This document shows positions 5,977 through 14,176 of a stretch of 64,000 bases of DNA, in pieces (the stretch's first letter is position 1; every line of letters begins with the position of its first letter). The DNA comes from Nitrospirota bacterium. GTDB taxonomy: Bacteria; Nitrospirota; 9FT-COMBO-42-15; HDB-SIOI813. A model generated the notes under the pieces. The model saw nothing but the letters and a program-made list of their open reading frames with translations. It did not search any database and was not told the DNA's origin. The translations under genes were made by a program, and so were the position numbers. The DNA lies in the NCBI GenBank assembly GCA_020851375.1, contig JADZCV010000019.1, forward strand, positions 1 to 64,000, written 5' to 3'.

Positions 5977-6173
5977 CCAAAATGCTCCTATGTACCTGTC
6001 ATTCCCACGGAACCCCCCGTATAATTTAAGCGGAGAGTGGGAATCCAGAACCAGGCCTCAGTCTGGATTCCCGCTTACACGGGCATGACGTTTTCATGAA
6101 CCTTGTGAGCCCTGAGCTGTGAGCTTGTCGAACAGTCGAAGGGCTCATGACGGTTCACCGGAAAATCTCCGTT
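5977..6173. repeat. composite palindromic repeat, full copy 1
   Basis: This copy of about 197 bp fills the whole kamA-dcd gap. It begins CCAAAATGCTCCTATGTACC, contains GTCATTCCC and GTGGGAATCCAG / CTGGATTCCCGC inverted arms, then GAGCCCT / AGGGCTC arms, and ends GACGGTTCACCGGAAAATC TCCGTT. A near-identical copy stands at 63791-64000 in the same order. Its left edge provides the dcd Shine-Dalgarno sequence on the minus strand, and its right edge runs into the kamA stop codon. Confidence 0.9.
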
Positions 6174-7233
6174 AATCACAGCTAACCTTCTCCTGATCTG
6201 GCTGAGGGTAGCTGTAGACCTTATCATTATAATTCCTTGCTACTACCTCCCTGTCATTAATCTCTACGACAAAATCCGAAGGGAGCAGCGGGATCTTTCC
6301 CCCGCCTCCCGGCAAGTCAATAACAAATCTGGGTATTGCCATTCCTGATATCCTGCCCTGAAGCGCCTTTATTATGTTTAATCCACACTCAACCGGAGTC
6401 CTTAAATGATCTGTGCCGCGGGTGAGGTCAGCCTGATAAAGATAATACGGTTTTACCCGTATTGCCAGAAGTTTCTGCATTAGCTCCTTAATCGTCTCCA
6501 CATTATCATTGATCCCTTTAAGCAGGACAGTCTGGCTTCCGAGCGGAATGCCTGCATCAGCGAGCCGGCCGCAGGCAATGGCAACCTCTTTCGTTATCTC
6601 AGCCGGATGAATGAAGTTTATATTCATATACAATGGATGATATTTTTTCAACATATTACAGAGTCTTTTTGTTATCCTCTGAGGCAGCGTACCGGGAACA
6701 CGTGTGCCTATCCTGATTATTTCGACGTGCGGTATCTCATTTAATGACCGCAGTATCTCTTCAATCTCCCTGTCCTTTAATAGCAGGGGATCTCCGCCGG
6801 AGAGTATGACATCTTTTATCTCATTATGCTCCCGGATGTATGCGATGCCTTTTCTCACCATCTCTCTTGAGACAGGCTCCCTGCCTACAAACCGTTTTCT
6901 CGTGCAGAACCTGCAATAGACAGGACACTGATGGGTCACCATTAGCAGCGCCCTGTCTTCATAACGGTGAACTACGGAAAATACCGGGCTGTCACCCTCT
7001 TCATTGAGAGGGTCATCAAGTCCGGCATTATCATGGATCTCCTGGGCATCAGGGACAACCTGCCTGTAAAGCGGATCGTCTTTCCCAGTGATGAGACTCA
7101 GAAAATAGGGATTAATTCGTGCAGGATATTCATCCATAATCCTTGCAAGGGTCTCTGCATCAAGTCCGAATTCCTCAGAAATCTGCGAAGGCCTTATAAG
7201 GCTCTTTTTTAGTATATGCTGCCAACGCTCCAC
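6172..7233 (-). CDS. kamA: KamA-family radical SAM protein (lysine 2,3-aminomutase-like)
   Basis: The protein has 353 residues. The radical-SAM cluster motif C103-x3-C107-x2-C110 (CPVYCRFC) is followed by SGGDPLL. Near the C-terminus are D269 (YQADL), D306 and a PLP lysine K313 in DLPGGGGK. In clostridial lysine 2,3-aminomutase the matching two aspartates bind the lysine amino group, so L-lysine to beta-lysine chemistry is likely. EpmB-type action on EF-P lysine is the alternative, but no efp or epmA is in the window. It lies 14 bases downstream of an ATP-grasp-like gene and seems translationally linked to it. No beta-lysine acetyltransferase (ablB) is nearby. Confidence 0.85.
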   Translation of the reverse strand: MERWQHILKKSLIRPSQISEEFGLDAETLARIMDEYPARINPYFLSLITGKDDPLYRQVVPDAQEIHDNAGLDDPLNEEGDSPVFSVVHRYEDRALLMVTHQCPVYCRFCTRKRFVGREPVSREMVRKGIAYIREHNEIKDVILSGGDPLLLKDREIEEILRSLNEIPHVEIIRIGTRVPGTLPQRITKRLCNMLKKYHPLYMNINFIHPAEITKEVAIACGRLADAGIPLGSQTVLLKGINDNVETIKELMQKLLAIRVKPYYLYQADLTRGTDHLRTPVECGLNIIKALQGRISGMAIPRFVIDLPGGGGKIPLLPSDFVVEINDREVVARNYNDKVYSYPQPDQEKVSCD

Positions 7234-7247
7234 TATAACATCACCCC

Positions 7248-8672
7248 TTAATTATTGACTATCACTTCAAATCCCATTCCTGCCTTATCGCGACTAATCC
7301 CCACAGCAGTAATAACAGCATCCTTCATCCCATGGATAAGCCTCTTGTCGAGCGGGCATATGGTTGCCATTATCCCCCTCAACTTAACCTCTTCACCTTC
7401 CACAAAATAATATGGACAGAGCCGGACACGGCCTGTCATGGCCTTTATACCGTCATTCCCCTTCCCTTCCTCCAAATAACCTATCTGCACATGCCTTCCC
7501 TTATGAAACTCCTGAAGGATGTATGGTGTCGTGTTGAACCCCCCCAATACCTCTTCAATAACAGCGCTCCAGTCCTCTTTCGACACATCCTCACCGACTG
7601 TCACACCCCTGCTGCCCCACGCCAGCTCTGAAAATCCGGAGGGCTTTATGACAAACTGCCTCTCCTTCTGCGTAGCATCTGAGAGATCAGACCAGTGAGA
7701 AACCGCCTTTCTTTTGCCAATCCTGAGTCCTGGTATTATACCATATGGCGGCATTTCAGAGGGATCGAGAATCCATGTGCAGGGAAAGAGATCAGCCAAA
7801 GTATTAAATACATCCTGCCCCAGTTCATTAATCCAATACTCTTCGAGGAGAGGGTGATGAAACAGGGCATAAAGCATCTTCTCCTCAAGGAAGTGTTTAA
7901 ATGGAGGGGTTACTGCCACCTCCTTTTTTTTAGCGCAGTACAGCATTAGTTCTGTTTTAGGTACATTTCTGAGATCAAAGAGTTCGAAAAATCTGTAAAT
8001 TGCATCAACCCTCAAACGTCCGGCACCTGTATCAAGGTATAATCCATCTTCATCATAAATCAAGTCCTGCGGTTTCACTGTATACGCCCTGCCGCCGGAC
8101 TCCCTAATTGTTGCTGACAGAAACTCCATTTCAGCCATGTAATCCCTGGATTCATCTGATACTACGGTTGCGACTACAGGGTCATGCAGCGAGGAAACAC
8201 CCCTTATCATATTCATAAAACCATTAAAAATCCCATCATCCTGACCTGTTACTGAATAGCCGAAGGAACTGTACACCCTGTTAAGACTTCCTGTTAATCC
8301 TATTCCCCCGGGAACAGAATCCAGTTCAGCCGCAACCATCCCCTGTTCTGTAAGAATTATATCAGGTCTTATAACGGCCGGGAGCAGCCGTTTCATCCTG
8401 TTCATTGAGGCATATTCTATAAGAGATTGAGGCTTTCCCTGATTGAGATATCCGGCAATCCAGGAAGGCTGCCTGCCAATAATGCTTTCGTAATATATTT
8501 TATTCGATGCTTTATAGAAAGAATAAAGGCAGGGGCCAAGCTGCTCAAGCGCTCTGACTTCAGTGTCTTCCAGCAGGTAAGGCTCAGGGGAGACACGCCA
8601 CTGGTTATACACACCATCAATTGTAAGTCTTTCCCTGATATGCCGGCACCGGTCTTCTGGTGACATACCCAT
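7248..8672 (-). CDS. uncharacterised ATP-grasp-like protein, partner of KamA
   Basis: The protein has 474 residues and no clear named family. The C-terminal half resembles an ATP-grasp fold: FVIKPSGFSELAWGSRGV (about residue 350) would hold the nucleotide-binding lysine, and YILQEFHKGRHVQIGY and GRVRLCPYYFV follow. The N-terminal half has ELDSVPGGIGLTGSLN and a YRFFELFDLRN segment, reminiscent of pre-ATP-grasp regions in glutathionylspermidine-synthase-like proteins. No signal peptide is seen. It lies 13 bases after the tetraheme cytochrome gene and 14 before kamA. A ligase that couples beta-lysine (or lysine) to another molecule is a reasonable inference, not a recognised function. Confidence 0.7.
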   Translation of the reverse strand: MGMSPEDRCRHIRERLTIDGVYNQWRVSPEPYLLEDTEVRALEQLGPCLYSFYKASNKIYYESIIGRQPSWIAGYLNQGKPQSLIEYASMNRMKRLLPAVIRPDIILTEQGMVAAELDSVPGGIGLTGSLNRVYSSFGYSVTGQDDGIFNGFMNMIRGVSSLHDPVVATVVSDESRDYMAEMEFLSATIRESGGRAYTVKPQDLIYDEDGLYLDTGAGRLRVDAIYRFFELFDLRNVPKTELMLYCAKKKEVAVTPPFKHFLEEKMLYALFHHPLLEEYWINELGQDVFNTLADLFPCTWILDPSEMPPYGIIPGLRIGKRKAVSHWSDLSDATQKERQFVIKPSGFSELAWGSRGVTVGEDVSKEDWSAVIEEVLGGFNTTPYILQEFHKGRHVQIGYLEEGKGNDGIKAMTGRVRLCPYYFVEGEEVKLRGIMATICPLDKRLIHGMKDAVITAVGISRDKAGMGFEVIVNN

Positions 8673-8685
8673 AAATACCCGTCCT

Positions 8686-9624
8686 CTACTGAATGGACCT
8701 TGTACGGCCGGAAGAGGTCTGTGCCAGTTTTTTTGCAGCTATATACTCGTGAGGAATTCCTTCCACCTTGGAATTCCTCAAACCAAGCACATATATAGTC
8801 AGGTCCTTTGCCTGCTCCTCAGTAAGGCCAAAATTGGGCATTATGGTAGCAGCAAAGTTCATCTCAGGATTGCCGGGAACAACCTTCTGTGGATCAAGAA
8901 AATGTTCATATATCCAGTGTGCCATTGTATGATGACCTTCGATATGCTGGAAATCATGAATCAAAAAGAAGGCGAGTTCTGTCTTGCTGCCCAAGCCTGT
9001 GAGTTCCGGACCGATCGTGCCGCCAGTGCCATTTATGTTGTGGCACCCCCTGCACCCAAATTGAAAAGAAAGGTCCCTGCCTCTTAAGAATGCAGCAGCT
9101 CCTGGGAAATCTGCGGCTGTTATTGAGTTATCATGCAGCTCCATATGGCATTTGGGGCACGACGACTGGGCATACTCCTGCGCCAAAAGCTGGCGATTGA
9201 GGTGATGAACTGCCCCATGGGTCCCTTCCACAGAAACTACCTGGCCGTCACCCTGATGGCATACAGTACAGCCAAACTTATCCATTGGATGGGTCTTAAG
9301 AAAATCACCCGGATGCGCAGTCAGCGGTTGAGGTTCATCAACAGCAAGAGGATTGCTTACCCCCATATGGCAGGTAATACACCTGTCCGTAGTATTTAAT
9401 TGCGGAAGCCATATCTGATCTATTTTGAGTGGCGCCTTGAGATACGATGGGTCATTCAGCTTCGATGCCATCTTTTTATTGTAATTCCTCTGATAATGCA
9501 TCCACTCTTTGTTATTCTCCCTGTAGAAAATAAAAATTGCAATGATCATAATAATAACAACTGCAGCGGCAAATATCTTATTCCGCTTTCTCATGACTGC
9601 TCTATCCCAGTTACGATCTTTCAT
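8686..9624 (-). CDS. membrane-anchored tetraheme cytochrome c of the bc-type complex
   Basis: With the ATG at 9624 the protein has 312 residues; the frame runs 23 codons further, but that stretch overlaps the 40-residue upstream gene. One membrane anchor (about residues 15-35) precedes four heme c sites: CITCH, CTVCH, CPKCH and CRGCH. The last sits in a mono-heme cytochrome c domain with TIGPELTGLG and a possible distal Met ligand in ATIMPNFGLT. The first part resembles multiheme domains fused to bc-complex cytochromes. It is the last core subunit gene of the Rieske/cytochrome b operon and probably takes electrons from the Rieske protein in the periplasm. Confidence 0.88.
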   Translation of the reverse strand: MKDRNWDRAVMRKRNKIFAAAVVIIMIIAIFIFYRENNKEWMHYQRNYNKKMASKLNDPSYLKAPLKIDQIWLPQLNTTDRCITCHMGVSNPLAVDEPQPLTAHPGDFLKTHPMDKFGCTVCHQGDGQVVSVEGTHGAVHHLNRQLLAQEYAQSSCPKCHMELHDNSITAADFPGAAAFLRGRDLSFQFGCRGCHNINGTGGTIGPELTGLGSKTELAFFLIHDFQHIEGHHTMAHWIYEHFLDPQKVVPGNPEMNFAATIMPNFGLTEEQAKDLTIYVLGLRNSKVEGIPHEYIAAKKLAQTSSGRTRSIQ

Positions 9625-9628
9625 AATG

Positions 9629-9751
9629 TTACTTTCTCTTATTAGTCCTCTTGTATAAATTCTCCATATAACTGGAAACACCCATAATACCAAAAGTAAT
9701 TATTGCAGTCACGATTACGAAGAATACCCCTATGCCAAGTCTTTGCAACAT
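9629..9751 (-). CDS. 40-residue single-span membrane peptide, putative small bc-complex subunit
   Basis: This short gene starts at ATG 9751 and stops with TAA at 9629-9631, giving 40 residues beginning MLQRLGIGVFFVIVTAI and ending in a basic tail (LYKRTNKRK). Residues about 5-26 form one hydrophobic helix, and the positive tail suggests N-out/C-in topology. It has a good GGTGGAG ribosome site, fills the 140-base gap between subunit IV and the tetraheme cytochrome, and its end holds the GAGAAAG site of the next gene, 4 bases on. By analogy with PetG/L/M/N of cytochrome b6f or CcoQ, it may be a small structural subunit. That role is inference. Confidence 0.72.
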   Translation of the reverse strand: MLQRLGIGVFFVIVTAIITFGIMGVSSYMENLYKRTNKRK

Positions 9752-9763
9752 ATTGTCTCCACC

Positions 9764-10591
9764 CTAAATTTTAAACCACGGTGTCAGCACTACATATTTT
9801 ATATTAAAAACAAGCCTGAGTCCGATTTTTACAGGTATGCCAATCATTATGAGATACATTACCGCCAGAGGCACATACCTGACCAGACCGAGCTTTTTAA
9901 CAAAATCCTTAAAATACATTGCCGGTATAATAAGGCCGGCCCCAAAATACGCAAGCACTATAAGGTCTGACAATGCCTTTCCTGCAAACACACCTATACC
10001 GAGTACTCTTGCAAAGATAATTGGCAGGTCTTCAAGGCCAGTAGCCGGGGGTTTGTGTACATGGGCATTATCCCACGGCCAGTACCAGTTCCAGTCAAGA
10101 CCCCTGAACCAGACGCCAATGACAATAAGCACCAGCCACAGGGCCATGCCAAATGAATAGCTGGTTACAGCAAATTTACGTTCCGAGAAGGTATAATAGC
10201 CCCTGCCCCTGGGATTTCTGTCGAGGAAGGGTATCAGCATCAGACCGCCTGCAATAAGAATAGGAAGTCCGACACCTGCTATCCACGGGTCAAAAAATAC
10301 AAGCAGTTCCTGAAGACCCAGAAAATACCAGGGCGCCTTCATCGGATTTGGCGTTGTATCCCGGCTTGCCTCTTCTTCAAGGGGTGCGCCAAGATAAACA
10401 GAGGCAAAGAGAAGGAGGCCTGTCACAATTAATACACAGAGAAATTCAAGATAGAACAGATGCGGCCATGAAAATATCGTATCTTCCGGTTCTTTTTCGA
10501 TACCCGGGGTTGTCCCCTTGACGAGCTCCATCAGACCATATGTCTTATCAGGATCTCTCGGGAAAATATCGTGAGATTTCTCTGCCATCAT
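9764..10591 (-). CDS. cytochrome b C-terminal subunit (subunit IV/PetD-like)
   Basis: The protein has 275 residues with several membrane spans. The Qo-site signature appears as KAPWYFLGLQE (about residue 85), in place of PEWYF; this 'PxxAPWYF' form is typical of menaquinol-oxidising complexes of Nitrospira-type and epsilon/deltaproteobacterial organisms. Two ATGs are adjacent at 10591 and 10588; GGGAG is better spaced to the second. Compared with plant-type subunit IV (about 160 residues) it carries about four more spans after FLDRNPRG. It is encoded right after cytochrome b, so the b subunit is split into b6-like and IV-like parts. Confidence 0.92.
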   Translation of the reverse strand: MMAEKSHDIFPRDPDKTYGLMELVKGTTPGIEKEPEDTIFSWPHLFYLEFLCVLIVTGLLLFASVYLGAPLEEEASRDTTPNPMKAPWYFLGLQELLVFFDPWIAGVGLPILIAGGLMLIPFLDRNPRGRGYYTFSERKFAVTSYSFGMALWLVLIVIGVWFRGLDWNWYWPWDNAHVHKPPATGLEDLPIIFARVLGIGVFAGKALSDLIVLAYFGAGLIIPAMYFKDFVKKLGLVRYVPLAVMYLIMIGIPVKIGLRLVFNIKYVVLTPWFKI

Positions 10592-10604
10592 ATCTCCCTG
10601 TTTA

Positions 10605-11381
10605 TTATAGCGGGCCTGAGAACCCGTCTTTCCTTACCCTCCAGAAATGGACTGCAAGGAATAACACTACAAGCATTGGCAGTACTACACAATGAAGCAC
10701 ATAGAATCTTAGGAGGGCGTTCTGACCCACCTCAGTACCGCCAAGCAGCATAAACTTCACATCATTGTCGGGCCTCATGCCAAGCTGTGTCCCGAAAGGT
10801 CCTTCAACACCAAACAGCGGGGTTGCAGCAGCCATCTTTGTTCCCACGGTAATAGCCCAGAGTGCAAGCTGATCCCACGGAAGCAGATAGCCGGTCCAGC
10901 TTAACAACAGTGTAAGCATCAAAAGCACCACACCTATCACCCAGTTGAATTCGCGGGGAGACTTGTACGAGCCTGTAAGAAATACCCTCGTCATATGTAT
11001 CCAGACTGTAGCAACCATCCCCTGGGCAGCAAACCTGTGTATGTTTCTGAATGTCGTCCCATACGAAACAACAGTCATCATATCCTTGATATCCTGATAG
11101 GCACGCCTGACATCAGGTACGTAATAGAACATCAGCATAACACCTGTTAATGCGAGCATTACAAATAACAGGAGTGATACACCTCCCATGCACCATGTAT
11201 ATCTGAATCTTATGGACTCCCATCTCGTCTTAACAGGATGGAGGTGATACAGGACATTGCTGAATGTAGTAAGCGACCGGTTGCGAGGCGTATCTTCATA
11301 ACCATGACGGAATACAGCCTTATAGACTTGTGTGCTCTTTATCCACTCTGTTATCTTATCCGACTTACCGCTGGCCATCAT
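10605..11381 (-). CDS. cytochrome b, b6-type N-terminal subunit
   Basis: The protein has 258 residues with four membrane helices. Heme ligands are visible as H115/H129 (NIHRF...WIHM, 13 residues between) and H230/H245 (LHCVV...AVHFW, 14 between), the spacing seen in b6-type proteins. [11 protein letters not shown] matches the quinol-site helix region. It would hold the two b hemes, and a c-type heme ci is possible but not provable here. The second ATG (11378) has better spacing to the AGGGGAGGA site than the first. It sits between the Rieske and subunit IV genes with gaps of 12-13 bases. Confidence 0.94.
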
Positions 11382-11393
11382 TCCTCCCCTTAA

Positions 11394-11924
11394 CTACACG
11401 TTCAAAAAGAACGGCTCTACCTCACGTGAGGCCTCATCAACCCTTAAACCCTGCTCTGTTGATACAGGATCAGGGTCCTGCCTGTGGTTAAAGTCCACAA
11501 CAATCTGTCCATCAGTGGGATCAATCTTGATCGCTGCACGCCACAGGAGCCTTGGTGACGGCCCTCCTAATACATTCCCTTCTATACTAAAAATGCTGCC
11601 ATGACACGGGCAAAGGAACGCCTGTTTGTCCTGAAACCAGTTAGGGGTGCAGCCAAGATGCCTGCATATGGATATCATCACATAAATACCGCGTTCATTG
11701 CGGACTACCCATACCTGCCTCTCTTTCTTCCACTTCTCACTAAGTCCCTCAGGATAATCCGATGGCTTGCCTATTTTAAAGACCTTCTGAGTTTCGTACA
11801 GCACATTAGGGAAATAAAATTTATAGAAGCTGTATGCAGACCCGCCGAACGTAGCAGCAATCCCGCCCCACCCGACTAAAGAGAAAAAGTCCCTTCTTGT
11901 TATTGTCTCATCAATATCTTTCAC
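11394..11924 (-). CDS. Rieske 2Fe-2S protein of the bc-type complex
   Basis: The protein has 176 residues. Cluster ligands are C87 and H89 in CRHLGC and C105 and H108 in CPCHGS; C92 and C107 can form the usual disulfide. The N-terminus (TRRDFFSLVGWGG) is a twin-arginine-like signal/anchor, so the folded domain is probably exported by Tat while staying membrane-bound. Its ATG overlaps the flavoprotein stop codon by four bases (ATGA), indicating translational coupling. It passes electrons from quinol oxidation to the c-type heme subunit. Confidence 0.95.
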   Translation of the reverse strand: MKDIDETITRRDFFSLVGWGGIAATFGGSAYSFYKFYFPNVLYETQKVFKIGKPSDYPEGLSEKWKKERQVWVVRNERGIYVMISICRHLGCTPNWFQDKQAFLCPCHGSIFSIEGNVLGGPSPRLLWRAAIKIDPTDGQIVVDFNHRQDPDPVSTEQGLRVDEASREVEPFFLNV

Positions 11925-13753
11925 TTATTCGAAACCTCTTCAAACTCCTCTATATATTCAAATATCTCCATAGTTACGGCGCCTGTAGGGCAGCGCTTGG
12001 CGCAATGCCCGCATCTTATGCACATATCTTCATCCTTTATCATTGCTGTGCCCATCTGTGCCACCGCAGCCCTGTCGCCAACAGCAAGCTCTTCCCATGA
12101 AATCTTATATCTTGCCTCAACCACCTTTCTTAAGTTTTCATCCCCGTCTATTTCCGTTACAGGGACCATCTTAAGACAGTACGTTGGACACACATCAACA
12201 CACCCTCCGCAGAGTATGCACAGGTCACCATCAAATATTGTATTTATGTGACACTTCAGACATCTGATCCCCTGTTCTGTGGCTGCATCTTCTTTATATC
12301 CTATCTCAACAAGGTCTACGTTCTTCTTTCTTGCCCCCGCATCTATTGCCGGAGGCTCTTCCCTCTCAAGACGGTCATAGTCCCTGAACATCTTATAATC
12401 TTTTGGCCCTGCAACAGGGTGCATGATGCCCCTTCGCTTTATCCGGATACTTACGCCCCTAAGATATTCATCAATAGACCTTGCGGCCTTCTGTCCAGCA
12501 GCCACAGCAGTAATCAGGAGCTTAGGCCCATACGCCACATCACCTGTTGCAAAGATGCCGGGGACACTCGTTTTATAGTTATCAAGGTTAACCTTTAAAA
12601 CGCCTGGCCTTACCTGTTCAATCCCGTCCTCTTGTTTTATAAATGAGAGATCTGCCCCCTGACCAACGGTAATGATCACCGTGTCGCACTCTATTACAGT
12701 CTCTGAGTTGGGAGCAAACTGCGGATTAAACCTCTTATTCTCATCAAACACACTTAAGCATTTTTGAACCTCAAGCCCTGTGACCCGGCCGTCTTTTCCA
12801 ACTATCCTCTTAGGGCCAAAACCGTCGTGAAGGATGATACCTTCTTCTTCACCTTCCATTATCTCAACCGGATCAGCAGGCATTATACTTCTTGTCTCAA
12901 GACATGACATATGAACCTCTTTATCCGGCCCAAGTCTTACAGCAGACCTTGAGGCATCGTAGGCCACATTACCACCACCAATTACCACTATCTTTTTGCC
13001 GATCTCAGGCGGTCGCCCGTAATTACATGCCTTGATAAAATCCATCCCTATATGTACGCCTTTTAGATTCGTTCCTTCTATAGGCAGGGAGCGGCCATTC
13101 TGCAAACCTACTGCTATGAGAATCGCCTTATAACCCATATCTTTCAGATTAGCAAGCGTCAGGTCTTTTCCGACAGGCGTGTTGCACCGAATCTCAACAC
13201 CCAAAGCCTCAATGGATGCAATTTCAGATTTGACAAGCTGTCTGGAAAGTCTGTAGTGGGGAATTCCAAAAACCATCATACCGCCCGGCTCTGGCTCTGA
13301 CTCAAATACAGTGACTTTGTAGCCAAAGAGTGCCAGATCATGCGCAGCAGTGAGCCCTGCCGGCCCTGCGCCAATTATGGCTACCTTCTCTGCAGTTCCG
13401 GGTTTTAGAAGTTCTCTGCGGGTTTTTGAAAATCTGAGGACGCCGCGGGGATCGGCTACAGCCTCAACACCATACTTTTCTGTTACAAAACGCTTAAGGG
13501 CCCTTATTGATACGGACTCATCAATATTCCCCCTCCGGCATGCAGCTTCACACGGATGGCCGCATATGCGGCCGCAAACTGATGCAAAGGGATTGGGCCC
13601 CCTCGCAATTGCATAAGCCCTCTCATAATCGCCCTCGGCAATCGCCTGAACATAACCGCCAGAGTCAGTTCCAACCGGGCACGAGCTTCTGCATTTTACC
13701 TGTTCAGCAAAGTAGTCCACATCAGGGACTACCACCTTATACCTGCTCTTCAA
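11921..13753 (-). CDS. glutamate-synthase-like FAD/NAD(P) oxidoreductase with C-terminal ferredoxin domains
   Basis: The protein has 610 residues. The N-terminus has GltD-type Fe-S cysteines (CRSSCPVGTD, CGRICGHPCEAACRR; about 20-75). An FAD-binding IIGAGPAGLTAAHDLA (about 125) and a second nucleotide site VVIGGGNVAYDASR (about 245) follow. The C-terminus carries two [4Fe-4S] ferredoxin motifs, CILCGGCVDVCP and CIRCGHCAKRCP. It is cytoplasmic by composition. It leads the Rieske/cytochrome b operon and overlaps the Rieske gene by four bases, so it may connect NAD(P)H or ferredoxin with the quinone complex, as proposed for NAD(P)-oxidoreductase-containing bc complexes of anammox bacteria. Direction of electron flow cannot be inferred. 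Confidence 0.88.
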   Translation of the reverse strand: MKSRYKVVVPDVDYFAEQVKCRSSCPVGTDSGGYVQAIAEGDYERAYAIARGPNPFASVCGRICGHPCEAACRRGNIDESVSIRALKRFVTEKYGVEAVADPRGVLRFSKTRRELLKPGTAEKVAIIGAGPAGLTAAHDLALFGYKVTVFESEPEPGGMMVFGIPHYRLSRQLVKSEIASIEALGVEIRCNTPVGKDLTLANLKDMGYKAILIAVGLQNGRSLPIEGTNLKGVHIGMDFIKACNYGRPPEIGKKIVVIGGGNVAYDASRSAVRLGPDKEVHMSCLETRSIMPADPVEIMEGEEEGIILHDGFGPKRIVGKDGRVTGLEVQKCLSVFDENKRFNPQFAPNSETVIECDTVIITVGQGADLSFIKQEDGIEQVRPGVLKVNLDNYKTSVPGIFATGDVAYGPKLLITAVAAGQKAARSIDEYLRGVSIRIKRRGIMHPVAGPKDYKMFRDYDRLEREEPPAIDAGARKKNVDLVEIGYKEDAATEQGIRCLKCHINTIFDGDLCILCGGCVDVCPTYCLKMVPVTEIDGDENLRKVVEARYKISWEELAVGDRAAVAQMGTAMIKDEDMCIRCGHCAKRCPTGAVTMEIFEYIEEFEEVSNK

Positions 13754-13780: not shown

Positions 13781-14176
13781 CTACCAGGCCTCCTCATCAT
13801 ATTGAGATGGATTGATAAGATCTCGGACAGATATTACTCCAACTACCTTACCACTCTCTGTAACTGCAAGGTGTCTTACCTTCTTTTGATCCATGTAATC
13901 CCCTGCCTCAAATATTGTCTTATTGCTATCTATAGTCAGAAGAGGAGAGCTCATTATTCCTTTAACCAGATAACTGCTCCCATCCACCCCTTTTGCCACA
14001 ACCTTTTTAACGATATCCCTTTCAGTCACGATTCCCGCTATCTCACCGCTTTCTTTATCCAGGACAAGGACACTTCCAACCTCTTTAGATTCCATGATCT
14101 TTGCGACCTCCTGAACGGTTATTTGCTTGTCCACAGTCACGAGACTTCTTGCCATCACCCTTTTCACAGGGATCAT
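13781..14176 (-). CDS. tandem CBS-domain protein
   Basis: The protein has 131 residues, made of two CBS motifs (about residues 5-60 and 70-125) and nothing else: ITVQEVAKIMESKEVGSVLVLD with GIVTERDIVKKV, then TIFEAGDYMDQKKVRHLAV with GVISVRDLI. Such stand-alone pairs bind adenine nucleotides and act as energy sensors. An AAGGAGG site precedes the ATG. The gene has its own promoter and lies 27 bases upstream of the flavoprotein gene, so it could be the first gene of the respiratory operon. Target unknown. Confidence 0.9.
   Translation of the reverse strand: MIPVKRVMARSLVTVDKQITVQEVAKIMESKEVGSVLVLDKESGEIAGIVTERDIVKKVVAKGVDGSSYLVKGIMSSPLLTIDSNKTIFEAGDYMDQKKVRHLAVTESGKVVGVISVRDLINPSQYDEEAW

Follow-up and report, generated by a model that had tools for sequence, protein, structure and literature searches.

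Direct wiring between a membrane-bound Rieske/cytochrome b complex and cytoplasmic nicotinamide adenine dinucleotide (NAD(H)) has previously been proposed mainly for anaerobic ammonium-oxidizing (anammox) bacteria. In Kuenenia stuttgartiensis, two such complexes are encoded by Kustd1480-1485 and Kuste4569-4574 (PMC12954380), and the models of these complexes contain a new heme b held by His62 (Kustd1481) or His43 (Kuste4571), near Arg266/Lys267 or Arg247 (PMC12954380). We analysed a 64,000-nucleotide stretch of DNA from a Nitrospirota bacterium (contig JADZCV010000019.1, positions 1 to 64,000; hereafter the window) that carries a Rieske/cytochrome b operon with a 610-residue GltD/NfnB-like flavoprotein, here abbreviated FLAV. 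This operon is real and conserved, a FLAV-containing variant of what has been proposed for anammox bacteria, and the gene set on which that wiring was proposed recurs in several other phyla. We use "FLAV-first" for loci in which FLAV is the first gene of the Rieske/cytochrome b complex, as it is here.

Like the Kuenenia complexes, the window operon combines in one cluster a Rieske protein, a b6-like cytochrome b, a five-helix subunit IV, a multiheme cytochrome c and a GltD/NfnB-like NAD(P) oxidoreductase. The likeness extends to single residues: a constant spacing of 204 residues maps the His and Arg of the Kuenenia interface heme to His46 and Arg250 of the window cytochrome b, with Lys251 alongside, and the heme cN Cys and the Ser beside the Rieske cluster are shared as well. 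The best PDB match of the Rieske protein was 9rk3 (E 5.7e-27), presumably one of the two Rieske structures described in the anammox complex paper. There are also clear differences. FLAV is the first gene in the window but lies inside the operon in anammox bacteria, the cytochrome is tetraheme (four CXXCH) rather than hexa- or octaheme, the nucleotide site of FLAV reads CLE rather than YRR, FLAV groups in another clade in the flavoprotein tree and has Cys60 where the anammox proteins of L062-L064 have Leu, and subunit IV carries a KTYGL segment that is absent from the anammox proteins. The initial annotation of the window had likened the operon to the anammox wiring; this holds for the kind of gene set and for the Rieske match but not for gene order, heme number, nucleotide motif or the grouping of FLAV in its tree.

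The linkage of FLAV to the complex is not due to chance. In a phylum sample of 296 genomes, 51 genes matched FLAV closely (E <= 1e-120), and an automatic count placed cytochrome b 0.5-1.05 kb downstream, on the strand of FLAV, in 40 of them. Reading of the loci added G106, G122, G303, G157 and G036, so that 45/51 FLAV genes have cytochrome b directly downstream, and two more (G003 and G005) reach a Rieske gene at the contig end. As two FLAV genes are cut by contig ends, 49 are informative, and between 45 and 47 of these are linked; the flavoprotein is thus not usually unlinked in relatives. Two genes look unlinked, one in G035 and one on G067:C106, where no cytochrome b was found in about 7 kb downstream of FLAV. 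The FLAV-first order also occurs in five other groups, in genomes with named loci of 'Deltaproteobacterium', Binatia (Binatota), Latescibacterota, KSB1, and Solibacteraceae and another Acidobacteriota, with either split or fused cytochrome b. In anammox genomes, FLAV instead follows cytochrome b or stands between Rieske and cytochrome b, indicating that the linkage persists through rearrangement. Searches of the open-licence literature gave no account of FLAV-first complexes beyond anammox bacteria, although earlier reports may exist.

The core complex is more often found alone. A scan with the Rieske family, for which the Rieske sequence of 9rk3 was the seed, gave 80 loci, among which FLAV stood beside the complex in only three, all anammox-type, and about 70 were Rieske-cytochrome b-subunit IV-multiheme c operons without FLAV. 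Within the phylum sample, an automatic list left 25 cytochrome b genes of this type without a FLAV partner; a few of these lie near contig ends, and one (G215:C5), predicted to be FLAV-less, in fact has both FLAV and the subunit IV segment. Because most complexes of the core type do without it, FLAV is an optional module. The FLAV-less complexes (Acidobacteriota, Planctomycetota, Marinimicrobia and others), which are comparable to the Nitrospina operon (PMC3578206), share with the window the core genes and their order, Arg250, the five-helix subunit IV and the Rieske Ser, but have neither the flavoprotein nor a K[TS][YF]xL segment in subunit IV. All 21 FLAV-first and all five anammox complexes have His46, as do 73/74 FLAV-less ones. 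The interface-heme His, the five-helix subunit IV and the Rieske Ser were accordingly rejected as markers of NAD(P) coupling: they occur without FLAV too and are not diagnostic. One FLAV-less complex, of family f26 (L214:8038-10968), adjoins a molybdopterin protein that resembles arsenite oxidase and has a Rieske_3 3Fe-4S domain, a further periplasmic partner of the core. The FLAV-less complex of a locus titled Candidatus Kuenenia stuttgartiensis (L133) clusters with Pirellula-type loci, so the bin name may be wrong.

The feature that best tracked FLAV was a short segment at the N-terminus of subunit IV, which in b6f complexes is cytoplasmic. In a first set of loci, all 26 FLAV-first complexes had the strict motif K[TS][YF][GS]L, which was absent from 12 FLAV-less complexes of the phylum, 72 other FLAV-less complexes and five anammox complexes; the chance of such a motif in a random segment of like composition is about 0.0003. 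The motif was set down as a prediction before new loci were fetched. Among these, 16 of 17 FLAV-first complexes fit the strict motif and none of six FLAV-less complexes did; the one miss was KTYNL (L231). Under the relaxed motif K[TS][YF]xL, which was chosen after the sequences of L231 and of family f2 were known, all 17 fit, and the totals came to 43/43 FLAV-first, 4/4 unlinked-FLAV, 0/88 FLAV-less and 0/5 anammox complexes. The four unlinked cases are the f2 genomes, in which FLAV is located elsewhere and the segment reads KSYAL. In six genomes that have both kinds of complex, the segment was seen only in the FLAV-linked one, and G142 has KPYGL without a close FLAV (best 37%). The segment falls in a low-confidence part of the subunit IV model and is probably flexible; from its distribution, it may be a docking site for FLAV. 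Together, the linkage and this FLAV-associated segment lend partial support to the initial suggestion of a bc complex wired to cytoplasmic carriers.

The C-terminal part of FLAV holds a single dicluster ferredoxin region, with CILCGGCVDVC at residue 512 and CIRCGHCAKRC at 578, rather than the two ferredoxin domains first assigned to it; the N-terminal Cys together with C498 and C501 could form two further clusters. The 16 presumed cluster Cys (21, 25, 60, 64, 68, 72, 498, 501, 512, 515, 518, 522, 578, 581, 584 and 588) are invariant in 26/26 FLAV-first homologues and suffice for four [4Fe-4S] clusters, in agreement with the initial annotation that all cluster motifs are present. The glycines of the flavin adenine dinucleotide (FAD) and NAD dinucleotide motifs are likewise invariant in FLAV-first proteins. 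The nucleotide 2' position, where the second strand of the NAD domain ends, reads LE or IE in 26/26 FLAV-first proteins and YRR in 5/5 anammox proteins, which, from general knowledge of such sites, suggests NADH for the former and NADPH for the latter. The protein has neither a transmembrane helix nor a signal peptide. It shares its sequence family, an FAD/NAD domain and an N-terminal Fe-S domain with NfnB, GltD and PRK12771 flavoproteins (PDB 9n5u, 5jca, 4ylf, 2vdc; NF009410), and its solved relatives include Nfn proteins, dihydropyrimidine dehydrogenases and GltD; unlike the NfnB, GltD and PRK12771 flavoproteins, it adds a C-terminal CxxC and dicluster ferredoxin, is tied to a membrane complex and scores below every curated cut-off of the PRK12771, GltD and NfnB-type models, as for TIGR01316 (glutamate synthase small subunit GltD/GltA), with 298.3 bits against a cut-off of 471.75.

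In a tree of these flavoproteins, the FLAV-first proteins form a single clade (support 99/98) that includes the unlinked f2 genes, and the anammox proteins group apart (100/99) with paralogues that adjoin 2-oxoacid:ferredoxin oxidoreductase genes. A single origin of the bc-linked flavoprotein was compatible with the data if the KorAB-linked paralogues may lie inside the group (approximately unbiased test, p 0.306) but not if they are held out (p 6e-5). The paralogues of the anammox FLAV at L184:9017-14672 and L186:8651-13955 adjoin a second pyridine-nucleotide oxidoreductase as well as 2-oxoacid:ferredoxin oxidoreductase genes. Family f3 has a second FLAV (L058:1682-9799 and L060:3428-9901) clustered with unknown proteins of 186 and 209 residues and with cytochromes, and in L058 a Rieske/cytochrome b set lies downstream of this cluster.

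The core subunits have features of the b6f class, namely a split b6/subunit IV and the heme cN Cys64, together with the heme b His pairs and the n-side (negative-side) residues of cytochrome b described above. The heme cN Cys is not general, being present in 12/21 FLAV-first complexes, and some FLAV-first complexes have a three-helix subunit IV. Among NCBIfam models, cytochrome b comes closest to ExtP and subunit IV to ExtQ of the Geobacter ext cluster (NF040969 and NF040970), but the window proteins lie below the curated cut-offs (261.7 against 290 and 55.9 against 150). Subunit IV has KAPWYFLGLQ at the quinol site and five transmembrane helices by hydropathy, and its AlphaFold2 model shows five long helices (mean predicted local distance difference test, pLDDT, 72). 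The Rieske protein has a twin-Arg N-terminus and the cluster boxes CRHLGCTPNW and CPCHGS; for the anammox-type traits of a Rieske potential above +300 mV and co-migrating subunits, the comparison covered the Ser of CPCHGS. The cytochrome c carries CXXCH at residues 82, 119, 156 and 191 and a PF00034 C-terminus, and a homologue stands at the same site in related operons; a Pfam scan found no match to the cytochrome f family in it.

The reading we favour, with a little better than an even chance, is that of a b6f-like quinol:cytochrome c complex to which a cytoplasmic FLAV is docked, exchanging electrons with NAD(H). FLAV would dock on the cytochrome b/subunit IV dimer from its n-side, with the KTYGL segment as the probable contact, and would offer a chain of four [4Fe-4S] clusters leading to FAD and NAD(H). 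Quinol would be oxidised at the site on the p-side (positive side), one electron passing by way of the Rieske protein to the tetraheme cytochrome and the other through hemes bP and bN (and cN) to FLAV and on to NAD+, replacing or adding to n-side quinone reduction. Docking of FLAV on the complex is likely and electron exchange between the complex and NAD(H) through FLAV is probable. The genes, the way they occur together, the conservation of cofactor ligands and the segment that co-varies with FLAV are observed; the physical contact, the use of NAD over NADP and the direction of electrons are the parts of this model that we infer, and the complex may work by reverse electron flow or bifurcation. 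For the direction, NAD+ reduction driven by the high-potential branch is favoured at about even chances, oxidation of NADH into the complex is a distinctly less probable alternative, and ferredoxin as the partner of FLAV takes the small share that is left.

Several observations weigh against this reading. FLAV-less complexes, too, can have His46, the heme cN Cys, a five-helix subunit IV and the Rieske Ser, suggesting that a normal Q-cycle may run without FLAV, and no convincing FLAV-specific changes were seen in cytochrome b. The predicted structure of FLAV alone, from an alignment of window and anammox sequences, was poor (pLDDT 51) and was discarded, leaving no model of the interface. Just two supported independent contrasts in the tree bear on the segment, both in the expected direction (sign test p 0.5), so that segment and FLAV may simply share ancestry. 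Finally, searches of the genome (2.5 Mb, 98% complete) turned up no RuBisCO and no CdhC, and thus do not show that autotrophy would call for reverse electron flow here. The genome does encode a second Rieske/cytochrome b complex (with CPCHAG and a monoheme cytochrome), two NuoF-type proteins, three heme-copper-oxidase-type matches above cut-off and a molybdopterin enzyme in a frame of 1241 residues, the size of NarG.

The same parts would also fit a docked FLAV working in the opposite direction, passing electrons from NADH or reduced ferredoxin through the n-side hemes to menaquinone, as a compact NADH:cytochrome c oxidoreductase. This direction is thermodynamically downhill, some of the hosts are probably heterotrophs, and the conserved His46, heme cN Cys and n-side Arg/Lys fit quinone reduction; we nevertheless consider it unlikely, as the second Rieske complex and the two NuoF-type proteins indicate that NADH oxidation probably has another route, likely a proton-pumping one in the case of NuoF, and the same argument was made against this direction in Kuenenia (PMC12954380). 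Quite improbable, in our view, is a soluble FLAV that acts on NAD(P)H or ferredoxin and is only co-regulated with a complex to which it never docks. The core complex is complete without FLAV, and other members of the large superfamily of FLAV act elsewhere, for example beside 2-oxoacid:ferredoxin oxidoreductase genes (L184, L186), but a soluble enzyme sits poorly with near-universal linkage in three operon positions and with a subunit IV segment that follows FLAV even between two complexes of a single genome and where the FLAV gene lies elsewhere.

The segment itself could be read in another way, as a lineage marker inherited together with FLAV rather than a docking site, with FLAV perhaps docking elsewhere. 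The small number of independent contrasts and the single clade of FLAV-first flavoproteins would suit this explanation, which we think rather unlikely for two reasons. The phylum clade of the cytochrome b tree (99/94) mixes complexes with and without FLAV, and FLAV-less f22, f25, f31 and f38, which nest among the FLAV-first complexes there, have lost or changed the segment; conversely, f2, whose FLAV is unlinked, retains a near form of it.

The genes and coordinates given at the outset for 8686-13753 proved correct (Table 1), and none of the operon genes has an internal stop. They belong to a longer minus-strand run of co-directional genes, in the order CBS protein, FLAV, Rieske, cytochrome b6-like protein, subunit IV-like protein, a 40-residue one-helix protein, tetraheme cytochrome c, a 474-residue protein and a radical-SAM aminomutase-like protein. 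Overlapping stop and start codons, which had been claimed through the operon, join FLAV and Rieske only (4 nucleotides), and the other junctions are gaps of 4-27 nucleotides. Two genes of the run had not been annotated initially, those for the 40-residue protein and the CBS protein. A similar short one-helix reading frame occupies the site of the former in 16/19 operons examined, with and without FLAV alike, and its product is probably a small subunit like those of b6f. The CBS-domain protein is a possible nucleotide-sensing regulator; its gene is kept upstream of FLAV in families f1 and f3 and not in f10. The 474-residue protein gave no Pfam match, and its gene is kept at the same site in family f1.

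Table 1. Features of the operon and adjoining genes, in window positions
Feature	Position	Strand	Basis or remark
Two-CBS-domain protein	13781..14176	-	PF00571; first gene of run, 27 nucleotides before FLAV
FLAV, 610 residues, TTG start	11921..13753	-	Pfam/NCBIfam; Fer4_20 N-terminal, dicluster ferredoxin C-terminal
Rieske [2Fe-2S] subunit, GTG start	11394..11924	-	PF00355
b6-type cytochrome b, 258 residues	10605..11381	-	PF00033
Subunit-IV-like protein, 275 residues, five transmembrane helices	9764..10591	-	ExtQ-like below cut-off; hydropathy; AlphaFold2 model
K16-T-Y-G-L20 segment at cytoplasmic N-terminus of subunit IV; candidate FLAV docking segment	10532..10546	-	Motif tally
40-residue single-transmembrane protein (MLQRLGIGVFF...)	9629..9751	-	Ribosome-binding site and similar reading frame in related operons
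Membrane-anchored tetraheme cytochrome c, 312 residues, likely start ATG 9624	8686..9624	-	CXXCH motifs, related operons
474-residue protein and KamA/EpmB-like radical-SAM protein	6172-8672	-	After cytochrome, 13-14 nucleotide spacing

Taken more broadly, the window operon may represent a widespread class of complexes beyond anammox bacteria, which would bifurcate quinol electrons to a periplasmic multiheme cytochrome and, through FLAV docked on the subunit IV segment, to cytoplasmic NAD+. In such a class, a core that by itself performs a normal Q-cycle would take on FLAV as an exchangeable n-side module. We put this broader reading forward tentatively, as a possibility that falls short of an even chance. 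To the anammox proposal, the comparison adds close complexes with and without the module and a candidate docking peptide. If FLAV is a true subunit, direct coupling of quinol and NAD(H) by Rieske/cytochrome b complexes would be a modular option in several phyla and not an oddity of anammox bacteria.

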